From Pseudophaeobacter flagellatus (lineage in GTDB: Bacteria > Pseudomonadota > Alphaproteobacteria > Rhodobacterales > Rhodobacteraceae), in NCBI RefSeq assembly GCF_021228235.1, contig NZ_JAJQRG010000004.1, forward strand, positions 186,001-250,000: a stretch of DNA of 64,000 bases, read 5' to 3'. The notes under the pieces are model-generated. The model was not told the origin of the DNA and ran no database searches. It was given only the letters and a program-made list of their open reading frames with translations. The position numbers and the translations under genes are program-made. Shown piece after piece: positions 3,715 to 14,588 of this stretch. Positions within the stretch are counted from its first letter, which is position 1. Every line of letters starts with the position of its first letter.

Positions 3715-3728
3715 TTGACCTGGATCAA
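3715..3728. promoter_or_regulatory. FNR box shared by hemN and fnrL
   Basis: TTGACCTGGATCAA matches the FNR consensus TTGAT-N4-ATCAA at 9 of 10 defined positions. Read toward hemN, its centre is 32 bp from the centre of a TAGAAT -10 element, which is class II activator geometry. Read toward fnrL it immediately precedes the first possible ATG (3729), where binding could give autoregulation. The match is seen; FnrL binding is inferred. Confidence 0.8.
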
Positions 3729-3740
3729 ATGGGATTACTT

Positions 3741-4481
3741 ATGACCGTCGAGACCCTGGCCCATGTCGGCTGCGCTGATTGTCCGATTCGCCACCGCGCC
3801 GTTTGCGCCCGCTGCGAAGAAGATGAATTGGCTGCGCTGGATGGTATCAAATATTATCGTAGCTATGAGGCTGGGCAGCTGATCATCTGGTCTGGAGACG
3901 TGATGAACTTTGTTGGTTCTGTGGTCTCTGGCATCGCGACGCTGACCCAGACAATGGAGGATGGCCGCACCCAGATGGTGGGGCTGTTGTTGCCAAGCGA
4001 TTTTGTCGGCCGTCCGGGGCGCAGTGGTGCCGCCTATAATGTGGTGGCCACCACTGATCTGGTGATGTGCTGTTTCCGCAAGAAACCCTTTGAAGACCTG
4101 ATGGCGCGGACGCCGCATATTGCGCAACGCTTGCTTGAAATGACCCTGGATGAGCTGGACGCTGCGCGTGAATGGATGCTGGTGCTGGGCCGGAAAACCG
4201 CGCGGGAAAAAATCGCCAGCCTGCTGACGATCATTGCTCGCCGAGATGCCTCGCTGACGCCGCAAGGGGTGGTCAATACGCTTACCTTTGATCTGCCGCT
4301 CACTCGCGAGGCCATGGCAGATTATCTGGGGCTCACACTGGAAACGGTCAGCCGTCAGATGTCTGCGCTGAAAAAGGACGGGGTAATTACCCTGGAAGGC
4401 AAGCGCCGTATCCATGTGCCGAATATGGCCCGCCTGTTTGAAGAAGCCGGCGATGACAGCGATGGCGGTTTCCTCAGCTGA
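3741..4481 (+). CDS. fnrL: Crp/Fnr-family oxygen-sensing regulator FnrL
   Basis: A 246-residue global anaerobic regulator. It has an N-terminal cysteine cluster (C11, C14, C22, C25) and a further Cys pair at 110-111, suited to an oxygen-labile [4Fe-4S] cluster, a cyclic-nucleotide-like domain, and a C-terminal helix-turn-helix with LETVSRQMSAL. The E--SR recognition residues are those of proteins that read TTGAT. An ATG at 3729 is also in frame, but it abuts the FNR box and lacks a ribosome site, while the ATG at 3741 follows GGGA and gives the usual FnrL N-terminus. Boxes matching its expected site lie in front of hemN, ccoN and ccoG and after ccoP. Confidence 0.93.
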   Translation: MTVETLAHVGCADCPIRHRAVCARCEEDELAALDGIKYYRSYEAGQLIIWSGDVMNFVGSVVSGIATLTQTMEDGRTQMVGLLLPSDFVGRPGRSGAAYNVVATTDLVMCCFRKKPFEDLMARTPHIAQRLLEMTLDELDAAREWMLVLGRKTAREKIASLLTIIARRDASLTPQGVVNTLTFDLPLTREAMADYLGLTLETVSRQMSALKKDGVITLEGKRRIHVPNMARLFEEAGDDSDGGFLS

Positions 4482-10375: not shown

Positions 10376-10588
10376 ATGGAAATCTACACCCTCCTGCGGG
10401 AATTCGCAGATAGTTGGATGCTCTTGTTTCTGTTCTCGTTTTTCACCCTGGTTGTAATCTGGGCTTTCCGCCCTGGCAGCTCAGCGGTCTATGAGGACAC
10501 AGCCAGCATTCCCTTTCGCCACGTAGACGCTCCGGCCCCCGACGAGGCCGAGGTGACACCCGCCGCACATAAGGAGGCGCGGACATGA
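10376..10588 (+). CDS. ccoQ: cbb3-type oxidase small subunit
   Basis: A 70-residue single-span membrane protein: a hydrophobic helix at about residues 13-31 ends in WAFRPGS, then a short polar tail. In Rhodobacter CcoQ stabilises the assembled oxidase and protects the oxidase-to-regulator signal from oxygen; that role is known for the family and not visible here. TAAGGAGA precedes the start, and the stop overlaps the ccoP start by four bases (ATGA). Confidence 0.93.
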
Positions 10589-11454
10589 GCAAACCCGTCA
10601 AAAAATACGATGATGATCCCAACACCACTGGTCACAGCTGGGACGGGATTGAGGAATTCGACAATCCAATGCCGCGCTGGTGGCTTTGGACCCTCTATGC
10701 AACCATTGTCTGGGCGATTGGCTACACCATTCTGTACCCGGCCTGGCCAATGGTGAACTCGGCCACCTCTGGGTTGTTGGGCTGGTCGACGCGGGCGGAT
10801 GTTGCCGATGAAATCGCGGCGGTCGAAGAGGCCAACGCGCCGATGAACGCCAAACTGGAAGCGGCTGATCTGACCGCCATTTCCGGGGATGCCGATATGG
10901 GGCCCTATGCGGTTTCGGCGGGGTCTGCCGTGTTCAAGACTTGGTGCGCCCAGTGCCATGGATCTGGTGCGGCTGGGGCCAAGGGCTATCCTAACCTGTT
11001 GGACGATGATTGGCTGTGGGGCGGCTCGATTGAGGAGATCCATACAACCGTTTCACACGGGATCCGGAATGAAGAAAGCGACGATGCGCGCTATTCCGAA
11101 ATGCCTGCCTTTGGCCGTGATGAACTGCTGGAGAAAGACGAAATCCACCAGGTGGTGAACTTTGTCATGTCGCTTTCGGGTGAGCCGCAGGATGCATCGG
11201 CGGTTGCCGCTGGGGCCGTGGTCTTTGAAGACAACTGTTCTGCCTGCCACATGGAAGACGGTAGCGGTGATCGCGGCCAGGGCGCGCCCAATCTTGGGGA
11301 TGCGATCTGGCTCTATGGGGGCGATTACGCCACCCTGACCGAGACGGTGACAAATTCCCGCTATGGGGTGATGCCGCCTTGGAACACCCGCCTGACCGAG
11401 GCAGAAATTCGCGCGGTTTCGGCCTATGTGCATCAGCTGGGTGGCGGCGAATAA
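10585..11454 (+). CDS. ccoP: cbb3-type cytochrome c oxidase subunit III, diheme
   Basis: A 289-residue diheme cytochrome c. The N-terminus is cytoplasmic, one helix spans the membrane (about residues 32-52), and two periplasmic cytochrome c domains follow with heme sites C121-AQC-H125 and C218-SAC-H222. It accepts electrons from soluble or membrane cytochromes and hands them to CcoO/CcoN. Start overlaps ccoQ, so translation is coupled. A strong terminator follows at 11489, ending the structural operon before ccoGHIS. Confidence 0.97.
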
Positions 11455-11488
11455 TCGCAGCCCGGCACGGATGCCCTGATGACAGTTT

Positions 11489-11515
11489 GGGCCGCCCCAG
11501 GGGGCGGCCCTTTTT
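11489..11515 (+). terminator. Terminator of ccoNOQP
   Basis: GGGCCGCC (11489-11496) pairs with GGCGGCCC (11503-11510), with a loop of six bases, followed by TTTTT. A textbook rho-independent terminator 34 bases after ccoP. Confidence 0.92.
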
Positions 11516-11557
11516 CGTGTGAATGATCCGGCGGGGCGGCTATATTTCTGGCCCCAT

Positions 11558-11571
11558 TTGACAGAGGTCAA
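11558..11571. promoter_or_regulatory. FNR-type box without a protein gene behind it
   Basis: TTGACAGAGGTCAA is a perfect palindrome (extended TTTGAC...GTCAAA) of FNR type. A TTTATT element at 11594-11599 is 32 bp downstream centre to centre, class II spacing, predicting a transcript start near 11606 on the plus strand. No credible coding region follows on that strand before 12135; a structured segment does. Confidence 0.6.
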
Positions 11572-11605
11572 ATCGCCACGCAACAAAACCGGCTTTATTG
11601 AAACG

Positions 11606-11750
11606 CAGGAGGACGCAGGCTGAGACAGCGCGCTGGGGGAATGGCGGGCCGGTCAGCCGGAGATCCCAAAGATCCCCTGTAGGATCCTTGGGCGGCGGCG
11701 TCGGCTTTTCGATCTGTTCGCGCGTTTCCTGAAAAGCCGACGCCCTTTCC
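11606..11750 (+). ncRNA. Candidate FnrL-controlled small RNA
   Basis: Between the ccoP terminator and the next gene lies a segment with two consecutive strong hairpins: CCCAAAGATCC/GGATCCTTGGG (11665-11675 and 11682-11692, one mismatch) and a perfect 14-bp stem, GGCGTCGGCTTTTC/GAAAAGCCGACGCC (11697-11710 and 11731-11744, 20-base loop), followed by a pyrimidine-rich CTTTCCTTCTCTC. An FNR box with a correctly spaced -10 element precedes it. A small RNA made at low oxygen is the simplest reading. Alternatively the hairpins are the 3' end of the minus-strand gene at 11831. The only ATG inside starts a 13-codon frame with poor ribosome spacing. Confidence 0.45.
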
Positions 11751-11830
11751 TTCTCTCACACGACCGCGACCCAACACCGGACCCTAACCTGAAGCTGCTA
11801 GCCGAGTGGTCAGGGATTCTGCCATAGGGG

Positions 11831-12034
11831 TCATAGGCTTTTGACCTCACCGCAGCAGGCAGGCTGGCAGACCGGTTGCGCCGGGATGCGGGCTGTGCCC
11901 CAGAGCCTGAGGGCGCGCAGCAGCGTGGCGATTCTGCGCCGGGGCGGGGTGGTGGTCTTGGGAAGATCCCGCAGGGGCACCTGGCTGTGCCGGGTCGCGG
12001 TCAACAAGGAGCGGGCGTAGATATCAGTCAGCAT
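11831..12034 (-). CDS. Small protein of unknown function
   Basis: A 67-residue protein I do not recognise. The start at 12034 is preceded by AGGAGGT with seven-base spacing, a near-perfect Shine-Dalgarno sequence, which is the main reason to accept it. The protein has a short N-terminal helix-like part, a basic central segment (TTTPPRRRIATLLRALR) and a cysteine-containing tail (CQPACCGE). It resembles small basic DUF1127-type proteins only loosely. It is divergent from a LysR regulator with a dyad in the shared promoter, so regulation by that protein is likely. It interrupts the usual ccoNOQP-ccoGHIS order. Confidence 0.65.
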   Translation of the reverse strand: MLTDIYARSLLTATRHSQVPLRDLPKTTTPPRRRIATLLRALRLWGTARIPAQPVCQPACCGEVKSL

Positions 12035-12115
12035 CTTGAAACCTCCTATGCTGGTGTTCTGTGTCTGCACTCTGGTCAAATAGCGCGCGACATGCGACTC
12101 AGGAAGAATGTAGTT

Positions 12116-12134
12116 ATGTAAGTCGAGGTTACAT
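12116..12134. promoter_or_regulatory. LysR-type dyad before the 12135 regulator
   Basis: ATGTAAGTCGAGGTTACAT has perfect 6-base arms and the T-N11-A core expected of LysR operators. It ends directly at the ATG of the LysR gene, where binding would block translation start or transcription, and lies 80-100 bases upstream of the divergent small gene, where it could activate. Inferred function. Confidence 0.6.
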
Positions 12135-13019
12135 ATGGACTGGCTATCCCTGCCGCCACTTGCGGCCCTTCGGGCCTTTTGTGCCTACGCAGAACATGGA
12201 AATATCGCAAAGGCTGGCATGGCCCTGAATGTCAGCCATGCTGCCATCAGCCAACAGCTGCGCAGCCTGGAGGACCACCTGGGTACGCCGCTGTTGGATC
12301 GCAGTCACCGCAGTCTGGAGCTGACACAAGAGGGCGCGCATCTGGCTCAGGCGCTGTTGCTGGGCTTTGGTGCCGTTCAATCGGCGGTGCAGGATATCAG
12401 CACCCAGGGGGCCGCCCGCCCCTTGCATATCAGCTGTACCCCGATGTTTGCCGCCAATTGGTTGATGCCGCGCTTGGCCGAATTTCGCCTGAAACACCCC
12501 GAGATCGACCTGGTTATCGACCCGCGTGGTGAACTGGTCGAATTGCAGCCTGGTGGCATTGATATTGCCCTGCGCTATGGCGCTGGCCAGTGGCCGGGCC
12601 TTGAGTGCGAGCCGCTGCTGCCGACGCCCATGGTGGTGGTGGCCAATCCCAGCCTGTTGCGGGGGCGGCAGGTGCACTGCCCCGAGGATTTGCTCGACTA
12701 TCCCTGGCTTGAAGAACTGGGCACCACCGAGTCGGATCTCTGGCTGCGCTCGCGCGGGGTGGCAAAGGCGGTCCGGGGGGCCAGCATCAAATTGCCGGGC
12801 AATCTGTTGATGCAGGCCGTTCGCGACGGCCAGGGCGTCGCGGTGGGGGTGAAGGCCTTTGTCGCAGAGGATTTACAGGCGGGGCGGCTGGTTGAATTGT
12901 TCACCGAACACCAGGACCGGGGCTACCATATCGTGACCCGCCCCGGGGTGCAGCGGCGCCAGCTGCGCCTGTTCATTTCCTGGCTGCGGCGGCATAAAAA
13001 TTCAGGCACAATCACCTAG
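12135..13019 (+). CDS. LysR-family transcriptional regulator (GcvA-like)
   Basis: A 294-residue LysR regulator: N-terminal helix-turn-helix (about residues 12-70, with MALNVSHAAISQQLRSLE) and a substrate-binding-like domain. The AISQQLR helix is of GcvA/AmpR type. It is not close in sequence to the LysR at 4548, so the two are not a recent duplication. It is divergent from the small gene at 11831 and lies in front of ccoG, from which it is separated by an FNR box. Effector unknown; a link to respiration is suggested only by location. Confidence 0.88.
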   Translation: MDWLSLPPLAALRAFCAYAEHGNIAKAGMALNVSHAAISQQLRSLEDHLGTPLLDRSHRSLELTQEGAHLAQALLLGFGAVQSAVQDISTQGAARPLHISCTPMFAANWLMPRLAEFRLKHPEIDLVIDPRGELVELQPGGIDIALRYGAGQWPGLECEPLLPTPMVVVANPSLLRGRQVHCPEDLLDYPWLEELGTTESDLWLRSRGVAKAVRGASIKLPGNLLMQAVRDGQGVAVGVKAFVAEDLQAGRLVELFTEHQDRGYHIVTRPGVQRRQLRLFISWLRRHKNSGTIT

Positions 13020-13065
13020 GGCATAAGCGGGCAGGCTATAAAGATGCTTATCCGATGTGCTTTTT

Positions 13066-13079
13066 TTGATCCACGTCAA
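13066..13079. promoter_or_regulatory. FNR box of the ccoGHIS operon
   Basis: TTGATCCACGTCAA matches the FNR site at 9 of 10 defined positions, 63 bases before the preferred ccoG start. The reading frame of ccoG is open across the box back to 13044, which argues that the true start is the later GTG at 13143. No clear -10 element is seen at class II distance. Confidence 0.75.
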
Positions 13080-13142
13080 AGAGCCGCCTCGGAAGATTTG
13101 AAAGAACCGCAAGACAAGACACAAATTCAGTGGAGTGAGTCC

Positions 13143-14588
13143 GTGAGTGATTCCGATCCCGCCCCCAGCCTCTATGCCGCCAGAGAACCAGTTTTTCCAC
13201 GGCGCGTCTCTGGGGCTTTTCGCAACCTGAAATGGTATATCTTGGTGATTACCCTTGGGATTTATTACATAACCCCTTGGATACGCTGGGATCGAGGCAC
13301 GTCTTTGCCGGATCAGGCGGTGCTGCTGGATCTGGCCAACCGTCGCTTTTACTTCTTCTGGATCGAAATCTGGCCGCATGAATTCTATTTTGTCGCCGGT
13401 CTGCTAATCATGGCGGGGCTGGGGCTGTTCCTGTTCACCTCGGCGCTGGGGCGGGTCTGGTGCGGCTATGCCTGCCCGCAGACCGTCTGGACCGATCTGT
13501 TCATTCTGGTTGAACGTTGGATCGAAGGCGATCGCAACGCCCGCCTGCGGCTGCACCGGCAGAAAAAGATGGATCTGCGCAAGGCGCGTCTGCGGTTGAC
13601 CAAATGGCTGTCCTGGCTGCTGATTGGCCTGGCAACAGGCGGTGCCTGGGTGTTCTATTTTGCCGATGCGCCAACGCTGTTTGTTGATCTGGTGACCGGT
13701 CAGGCGCATCCCATTGCCTATACCACCATGCTGGTTCTGACCGCGACGACCTTCTTCTTTGGCGGTATCGCCCGCGAACAGATCTGCATCTATGCCTGCC
13801 CCTGGCCGCGCATTCAGGCGGCGATGATGGACGAAGACACCCTGGTCGTGGGCTACCGCGACTGGCGTGGCGAACCACGTGGCAAGCTGCACAAGAGCAA
13901 GGGCAAGGCTGAAATCGCGGAACCGCCCCAGGGCGACTGCATCGACTGCATGGCCTGTGTCAACGTCTGCCCGGTGGGGATTGATATCCGTGATGGTCAG
14001 CAGCTGGAATGTATCACCTGCGCGCTGTGCATTGATGCCTGCGATGATGTGATGGAAAAGATTGGTAAACCACGCGGGTTGATCGACTATATGGCGCTCT
14101 CGGATGAGGCGCATGAACGCGCAGGCCAGCCGCCCAAGAATATCTGGAAACACATCCTGCGCCCGCGTACCATCCTCTATACCAGCCTATGGAGCTTCGT
14201 TGGCCTGGGGCTGATCTTTGCCTTGTTCATCCGATCTGATATTGATTTGACTGTGGCACCGGTGCGCAACCCCACCTTTGTGACCCTGTCGGATGGCTCG
14301 GTGCGCAATACCTACGATGTGCGCCTGCGTAACAAACACGGCGAACCACGGCCCTTTGAATTGTCGCTGAAGGGGGATCCAAGCATGCGGATCCAGCTGG
14401 AAGGCACGCCCTATGCCTCGGTTGAGGTTCCGGCGGATACTGCCTACCTTCAACGGGTCTATATCGTAACGCCCAAAGGCGCAGAGCCCTCTAGTGCGGA
14501 GGCTACGCCCGTGCGGATCTGGGTCGAAGATCTGATCACCGGGGATCGGGCCTATAAGGACACCACCTTCAATGGCAGAGGAAACTGA
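13143..14588 (+). CDS. ccoG: Cytochrome c oxidase accessory protein (RdxB/FixG-like)
   Basis: A 481-residue membrane ferredoxin-like protein of cbb3 oxidase assembly, thought to reduce Cu(II) for insertion. It has about five transmembrane helices, CGYACPQTVW and CIYACPW cysteine pairs near membrane segments, then two [4Fe-4S] motifs, CIDCMACVNVCP and CITCALCIDAC, and a C-terminal Ig-like periplasmic domain. The GTG at 13143 preceded by GTGGAG is preferred over an in-frame ATG at 13044, since an FNR box lies between. It opens ccoGHIS. Confidence 0.93.
   Translation: MSDSDPAPSLYAAREPVFPRRVSGAFRNLKWYILVITLGIYYITPWIRWDRGTSLPDQAVLLDLANRRFYFFWIEIWPHEFYFVAGLLIMAGLGLFLFTSALGRVWCGYACPQTVWTDLFILVERWIEGDRNARLRLHRQKKMDLRKARLRLTKWLSWLLIGLATGGAWVFYFADAPTLFVDLVTGQAHPIAYTTMLVLTATTFFFGGIAREQICIYACPWPRIQAAMMDEDTLVVGYRDWRGEPRGKLHKSKGKAEIAEPPQGDCIDCMACVNVCPVGIDIRDGQQLECITCALCIDACDDVMEKIGKPRGLIDYMALSDEAHERAGQPPKNIWKHILRPRTILYTSLWSFVGLGLIFALFIRSDIDLTVAPVRNPTFVTLSDGSVRNTYDVRLRNKHGEPRPFELSLKGDPSMRIQLEGTPYASVEVPADTAYLQRVYIVTPKGAEPSSAEATPVRIWVEDLITGDRAYKDTTFNGRGN

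Follow-up and report, generated by a model that had tools for sequence, protein, structure and literature searches.

Which product does an FNR box serve when it stands behind the terminator of ccoNOQP, ahead of a segment that holds no protein gene on its strand? A sequence-only reading of 64,000 nucleotides of Pseudophaeobacter flagellatus DNA (hereafter, the window) had proposed an FnrL-controlled regulatory RNA at this place. Following comparisons across Rhodobacteraceae, we consider it probable that FnrL activates a small RNA of ~140–150 nt here, running from ~11606 to the hairpin at 11697–11744 or beyond, and that its loop most likely acts in trans (Table 1).

Table 1. Positions of the features discussed, in window coordinates
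Feature	Position	Strand	Basis or remark
fnrL, presumed activator	3729–4481	+	NF045989, 452.2 bits (cut-off 300)
ccoP	10585–11454	+	TIGR00782, 401.4 bits (cut-off 179.95)
Strong terminator of ccoNOQP, between ccoP and the element	11489–11510	+	9 GC pairs, then TTTTT
FNR (FnrL-type) box, TTGACAGAGGTCAA	11558–11571	+	Exact match; centre 11564.5
Predicted −10 hexamer TTTATT, weak	11594–11599	+	Box centre set at −41.5
Predicted 5′ hairpin, arms 11618–11623 / 11653–11658	11618–11658	+	Fold; consensus fold of 13 sequences
Conserved two-hairpin element, HRC-8-4 type	11663–11752	+	Covariance model, 83.4 bits, E 5.9e-14
Variable hairpin, arms 11665–11675 / 11682–11692	11665–11692	+	10 pairs, one A·C mismatch
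Conserved-loop hairpin	11697–11744	+	Perfect 14-bp stem, 11697–11710 / 11731–11744
Loop core CTGTTCGCGCGTTTCC	11714–11729	+	Inner 14-mer near-invariant
Pyrimidine-rich tail CTTTCCTTCTCTC, possible 3′ end	11745–11757	+	Weak U tract
67-aa ORF between element and LysR gene	11831–12034	−	Matches in genus
LysR-family regulator 3′ of element	12135–13019	+	PF00126, PF03466
ccoG	13044–14588	+	TIGR02745; own FNR box 13066–13079

The box and its predicted promoter

Exact TTGAYN4RTCAA boxes occur four times in the 64-kb window (at 3715, 7904, 11558 and 13066); the background, from 89 other Rhodobacteraceae loci collected for three other genes, is 11 boxes in 291,797 nt, equal to 0.0098 per 260 nt. The palindromic box under study is exact and lies 3′ of the ccoP terminator, as had been reported, and within the window's genus each of the 12 genomes searched has a box at the equivalent position. 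Profile matches also place ccoN and ccoO in the window, together with hemN, whose score falls below the cut-off (TIGR00538, 301.6 bits; cut-off 324.95).

With the box centre at −41.5 (class II spacing), the predicted +1 is 11606. The arrangement is that of an FNR class II promoter, with a box near −41.5 and a −10 element at fixed spacing, the start being a prediction and the window's −10 being weak. The claim of a correctly spaced −10 element holds for the spacing. A generic sigma-70 scan of 10500–13100 returned zero promoters; an activator could replace the −35 element at the predicted promoter. The same spacing had been noted for hemN and was recovered there, where the minus strand of the 3715–3728 box yields TAGAAT, directed at hemN.

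A protein-coding reading of 11598–11732 (a 44-aa ORF) was rejected. Its matches with E ≤ 0.02 cover only the last 11–27 residues, which correspond to the hairpins, and two weaker matches elsewhere have E values of 0.42 and 5.1 (12 related loci compared). No coding pattern was seen in these 12 loci, and the earlier statement that this strand carries no protein gene stands.

Structure and covariation of the element

Two hairpins form the conserved element, and the predicted 5′ hairpin lies outside its family-wide extent. The first hairpin of the element had been described as of a 13-bp class with one mismatch; the single mismatch is there, and the pairs number 10. The second was found as described, a perfect 14-bp stem followed by a pyrimidine-rich run, and its loop is 20 nt long (11711–11730). 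The 90-nt element has a fold of −41.4 kcal/mol (z = −4.67; 0/200 shuffles as low), and the whole 150 nt from 11606 reach only z = −2.13 (6/200 shuffles as low).

Both stems covary, and compensatory changes, which the sequence-only reading had expected in relatives, were found in alignments of 13 and 35 rows. The unfitted 13-row alignment contained 16 cells changed on both sides versus 4.7 in shuffles (0/500); two weaker measures gave 6 double-change pairs versus 3.1 (7/500 shuffles) and 19 pair types versus 17.3 (81/500 shuffles). In the 35-row alignment, which was fitted to the structure and is hence biased towards it, 22 of 25 pairs changed on both sides versus 14.9. These comprise 12/12 modelled pairs of the variable hairpin, with 89.3% of cells paired, and 10/13 of the conserved-loop hairpin, with 99.6% of cells paired (35 sequences).

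Of the 145 matches that have a loop (147 matches in all), 143 carry the identical 14-mer TGTTCGCGCGTTTC; they were collected with covariance models that favour sequences retaining it. Dimerization of the loop through its CGCGCG palindrome was considered separately and found unsupported (246/500 shuffles as low). The 14-bp stem is absent from the terminator scan list because the scan permits loops of 3–8 nt only, a limit that the 20-nt loop exceeds.

Relation to known RNAs

By position, taxon, neighbour gene and shape, the element is HRC-8-4, a motif published in RNA Biology in 2021 with 160 representatives, from Rhodobacterales only (PMC8632094); we set the two equal by description, not by consensus figure. 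As described there, HRC-8-4 sits between ccoNOQP and ccoGHIS, often with a LysR gene (hvrB) 3′ of it, and is a terminator-like stem with a conserved tip (PMC8632094). In the window, the element lies between ccoP and ccoG, and its 14-bp stem carries the conserved 14-mer in the loop and a weak U run. A LysR gene follows at the position that hvrB occupies in the HRC-8-4 paper (PMC8632094), with the 67-aa reverse-strand ORF in between. The taxonomic restriction also agrees: 179 of 394 family genomes matched, and a class-wide draw added three family genomes and one loop-less weak match (see below). The reverse-strand ORF itself matched no Pfam or NCBIfam family, and the label DUF1127 is unsupported by either.

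The section on HRC-8-4 in that paper contains no FNR promoter, sRNA reading or division into attached and free forms, unlike the present analysis, nor does it mention the upstream hairpin that the element has here (PMC8632094). In the literature searched, the name HRC-8-4 occurs only in PMC8632094, and as far as that literature goes the motif was published in 2021 without known function. The main texts of PMC5107571 and PMC4809877 contain no ccoP or cbb3, and the terms sought were not found in PMC8625941.

A search of the window against Rfam at gathering score returned 0 matches, and 8 loci gave two chance-level sub-threshold matches to other families, both off the element. A known Rfam RNA as the identity of the element is ruled out by this search, and we take FnrS to be among the models searched. 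Enterobacterial FnrS, an sRNA described as under direct FNR regulation (PMC4263372), would be comparable to the proposed RNA in that regulation, although the window matches no Rfam model at gathering score.

Closer relatives offer two further comparisons. PcrZ of Rhodobacter sphaeroides is described as a low-oxygen sRNA of 136 nt with its own promoter, whose induction needs PrrA and FnrL, the latter perhaps indirectly (PMC6238624, PMC8307010, PMC8139620). The proposed RNA would resemble it as a low-oxygen, FnrL-dependent sRNA with its own promoter, but the loci differ: the PcrZ 5′ end is given as 2,565,820 (PMC6238624) and the FnrL ChIP peaks of ccoNOQP and rdxB as ~2,436–2,441 kb (PMC4263372), about 125 kb apart by these published coordinates. 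SorX and others are reported as 3′-UTR-derived sRNAs of R. sphaeroides (PMC6238624); an attached element (see below) would likewise be cut from an mRNA 3′ end, whereas the host genes of the SorX-type sRNAs are other ones and a promoter of its own is predicted for the copy in the window. In the FnrL ChIP-seq of R. sphaeroides, 2 of the 13 sites outside annotated promoters are described as lying at sRNAs, RSs0019 and RSs2461 (PMC4263372).

Distribution among Rhodobacteraceae

A DNA search of 60 relatives gave matches in 11/11 congeners and in a single genome from a different genus; each match covered the second hairpin, and an upstream box was present at every one of the 12 loci. Of 394 family genomes, the first covariance model, built from 13 sequences, hit 166 and the second, built from 35, hit 179; the RNA is not peculiar to the window's genome. 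In the class-wide draw, the second model matched 4 of 385 genomes, namely three of the family (the window's own included) and one weak match, L068, which was not accepted because it has no conserved loop. ccoP scored over the cut-off in 355 of the 394 family genomes, whereas the element was unmatched in 215, a count to be read with the fast filters of the covariance search in mind, which miss weak matches. These numbers suggest that the RNA is an addition rather than a fixed companion of the oxidase. One genome, G147, had a second covariance-model match.

Genomic context was read for 132 of the 179 genomes with a match, most of them with higher scores (47 were left out), together with 10 congeners and L068. 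An antisense match of L016 was dropped before counting (148 rows to 147), and the sample came to 147 matches in 143 loci, one locus per genome.

Attached and free-standing forms

The distance to ccoP separated two forms. Among the 81 matches beginning at most 100 nt after the ccoP stop (attached; 77 of them begin 3–23 nt past it), an exact box within 260 nt upstream was found in none, and a box with one mismatch permitted in 5. Where the gap exceeded 100 nt (detached), 55 of 58 matches had an upstream box, the other three being second or third tandem copies; where ccoP was out of view, 6 of 8 had one. In 80 of the 141 classified loci, the element is the 3′ end of ccoNOQP. Judged from sequence context, the element would therefore be the tail of the ccoNOQP message in some lineages, whereas in others it would stand as an independent gene headed by an FNR box. 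This dichotomy is new relative to the published HRC-8-4. Together with the box in 12/12 genus genomes, the contrast of 55/58 with 0/81 lends support to the candidate regulatory RNA of the sequence-only reading.

A repeat set was collected with an exact 18-mer in named genomes, partly the same ones, and comprised at least 119 stretches and at least 122 matches, the gap being measured to the loop with a limit of 150 nt. Among the matches listed, a box was present in 0/70 attached and 28/31 detached copies, the three boxless detached ones being extra copies in L217 and L273. A further 21 of the listed matches had no visible ccoP: 8 of these had hairpin and box, 12 were without a hairpin and chance-like, and one was cut by the edge.

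At class II spacing, the box-bearing promoters have −10 and +1 features in common. In 49 box-bearing matches outside the genus, A occupies −11 in 84% and T −7 in 61%, with G at −14 in 67% and A at +1 in 59%; in the window's genus, T is at −7 in 12/12 and T replaces A at −11 in 83%. The box lies 39–51 nt 5′ of the element in 11 of the 61 box-bearing matches, so that transcription is predicted to begin close to where the first hairpin starts, and the two hairpins alone therefore seem sufficient. A run of at least four T follows the stem in 25/81 attached and 25/61 box-bearing matches; given the weak U tract, the 3′ end may differ from a plain intrinsic terminator.

An exact box stands 5′ of ccoN in 22 of the 34 attached and 11 of the 14 detached loci that have sufficient upstream DNA, and allowing one mismatch adds two attached loci, so that FNR control of the attached form may not extend to every locus. 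The other 12 attached loci (L207, L256, L263 and others, with Ruegeria and Roseovarius among them) had no exact box in the 500 nt preceding the ccoN match, and ccoNOQP may be controlled differently there. When the two forms are placed on a quick CcoP tree (129 loci), they require 25 changes, whereas shuffled labels require 39.3 on average (minimum 33 in 200 shuffles); the count was made without branch support and carries no direction of change.

Since 81 of the 147 matches begin within 100 nt of ccoP, one might see here a 3′-end element only, that is, the ccoNOQP terminator and an RNase barrier whose loop contacts a protein and which has no role in trans. Such an element would leave unexplained both the own FNR promoter of the detached copies (55/58), which in the window lies behind a separate ccoP terminator, and the near-invariance of the 14-nt loop. 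At L098, the copy right behind ccoP (1086–1173) still matches the covariance model but is loop-less, whereas an intact boxed copy with the loop stands free, 931 nt past the ccoP stop. We regard this explanation as unlikely.

Downstream genes and possible action in cis

A LysR gene was the nearest recognised 3′ gene for 24 of the 81 attached matches and 38 of the 61 box-bearing ones, and the authors of HRC-8-4 themselves guessed at a terminator-embedded riboswitch-like or HvrB-binding role (PMC8632094). As a riboswitch or attenuator in cis, the terminator-like stem, with its unusually conserved tip, would be opened by a ligand or protein (perhaps HvrB) into hvrB or ccoG. However, ccoG is commonly preceded by a separate FNR box: in 20/20 box-bearing and 46/51 attached matches with ccoG as the next recognised gene, and in 38/51 matches in which a LysR gene comes first. 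The LysR match itself starts 175–650 nt away in 61 of the 63 LysR-first matches, and in the window the reverse-strand ORF, which has matches in the genus, separates it from the element. At L159 and L160, both attached, the following gene points back towards the element (RtcB-like and a methyltransferase, respectively), and the tandem copies in L135 and L164 would be odd for a switch. The separate ccoG box and the convergent next genes favour a trans-acting RNA over a cis riboswitch. We hold the cis reading to be improbable; it is weakened overall, yet may apply at loci where a LysR gene follows.

The ccoG box of the window falls within the longest ccoG ORF, and the true start is therefore probably 3′ of the first ATG (13044). 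That ccoG too has an FNR box (13066) would fit a box near the element that is a relic of the ccoG promoter, or a chance box beside an ordinary terminator. The comparative data, both the conservation and the dichotomy, contradict this, and the two boxes coexist in 20/20 box-bearing matches with ccoG next; we give it almost no credence.

Searches for targets

The complement of the loop (17-mer, at most 3 mismatches) matched the own genome 28 times, counting the element, as often as the reversed pattern did (28). The counts of GGAAACGCG before ATG cover 36 genomes in all. Within 14 nt before ATG, the counts were 8 versus 9 for the own genome, 144 versus 144 for the genus (12 genomes), 132 versus 82 for 10 further genomes of the family and 107 versus 64 for 14 genomes from other families. 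An equal excess outside the family indicates that it is not linked to the element. Pairing of the loop with the 5′ regions of coxB, sdhC, sodB, hvrB and ccoG was no better than that of shuffled loops, which were as low in 20, 35, 7, 23 and 16 of 60 cases, respectively; this is a weak test of five candidate genes with starts set by a crude rule, and the coxB, sdhC and sodB sets hold a detected element in only 17 of 29 genomes.

Instead of pairing with mRNAs, a trans RNA could titrate a protein. The near-invariant loop and the tandem multiplication in some genomes are compatible with titration, as is the lack of an mRNA target signal linked to the element, but a candidate protein is lacking, and we think it very unlikely.

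Proposed role

Taking the element, its structure, its loop, the box and the two contexts as the sequence evidence, we propose the following for the trans-acting RNA. At low oxygen, FnrL would activate RNA polymerase, giving a transcript from ~11606 that ends at or past the hairpin at 11697–11744, ~140–150 nt in total. The family-wide working part may be ~85 nt, a structural hairpin plus the hairpin presenting the near-invariant loop UGUUCGCGCGUUUC. In 80 of the 141 classified loci, the RNA would be cut from the 3′ end of the ccoNOQP mRNA, whereas the window's genus and further lineages would make it from an FNR promoter of its own. Either way, it could be made together with the cbb3 oxidase, through the ccoN promoter if attached and its own FNR promoter if detached. 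The loop would act in trans, either pairing with mRNAs or binding a protein, and the RNA may tune gene expression while the oxidase is produced.

More broadly, we lean towards the view that a low-oxygen sRNA, common across Rhodobacteraceae, originated as the 3′ tail of the cbb3 mRNA and was repeatedly freed by gaining an FNR promoter, with the loop kept. The FNR-box dichotomy gives HRC-8-4 a likely regulator and condition, and moves attention from a ligand of HRC-8-4 to the targets of the RNA. If the proposal is true, HRC-8-4 would be an oxygen-responsive trans regulator and no riboswitch, and many Rhodobacteraceae, marine ones included, would possess, next to FnrL, an RNA arm that responds to oxygen, with a role comparable to that of enterobacterial FnrS, to which it is unrelated by Rfam. 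The family would then also represent a natural series of sRNA gene birth, in which repeated switches between 3′-UTR and stand-alone forms could be traced genome by genome.

Loci with several copies

Tandem copies number three in L135 and two in L164, and extra copies also occur in L273; two copies lie 91 nt apart in L213 and two 286 nt apart in L217. None of the extra tandem copies in these five loci has an exact upstream FNR box. In Shimia thalassica CECT 7735, the locus, which spans two neighbouring tiles of a single contig (L216 and L231), has the order ccoP, attached copy, LysR, boxed copy, ccoG, and the attached copy lies 83 nt (to the loop) past the ccoP stop.
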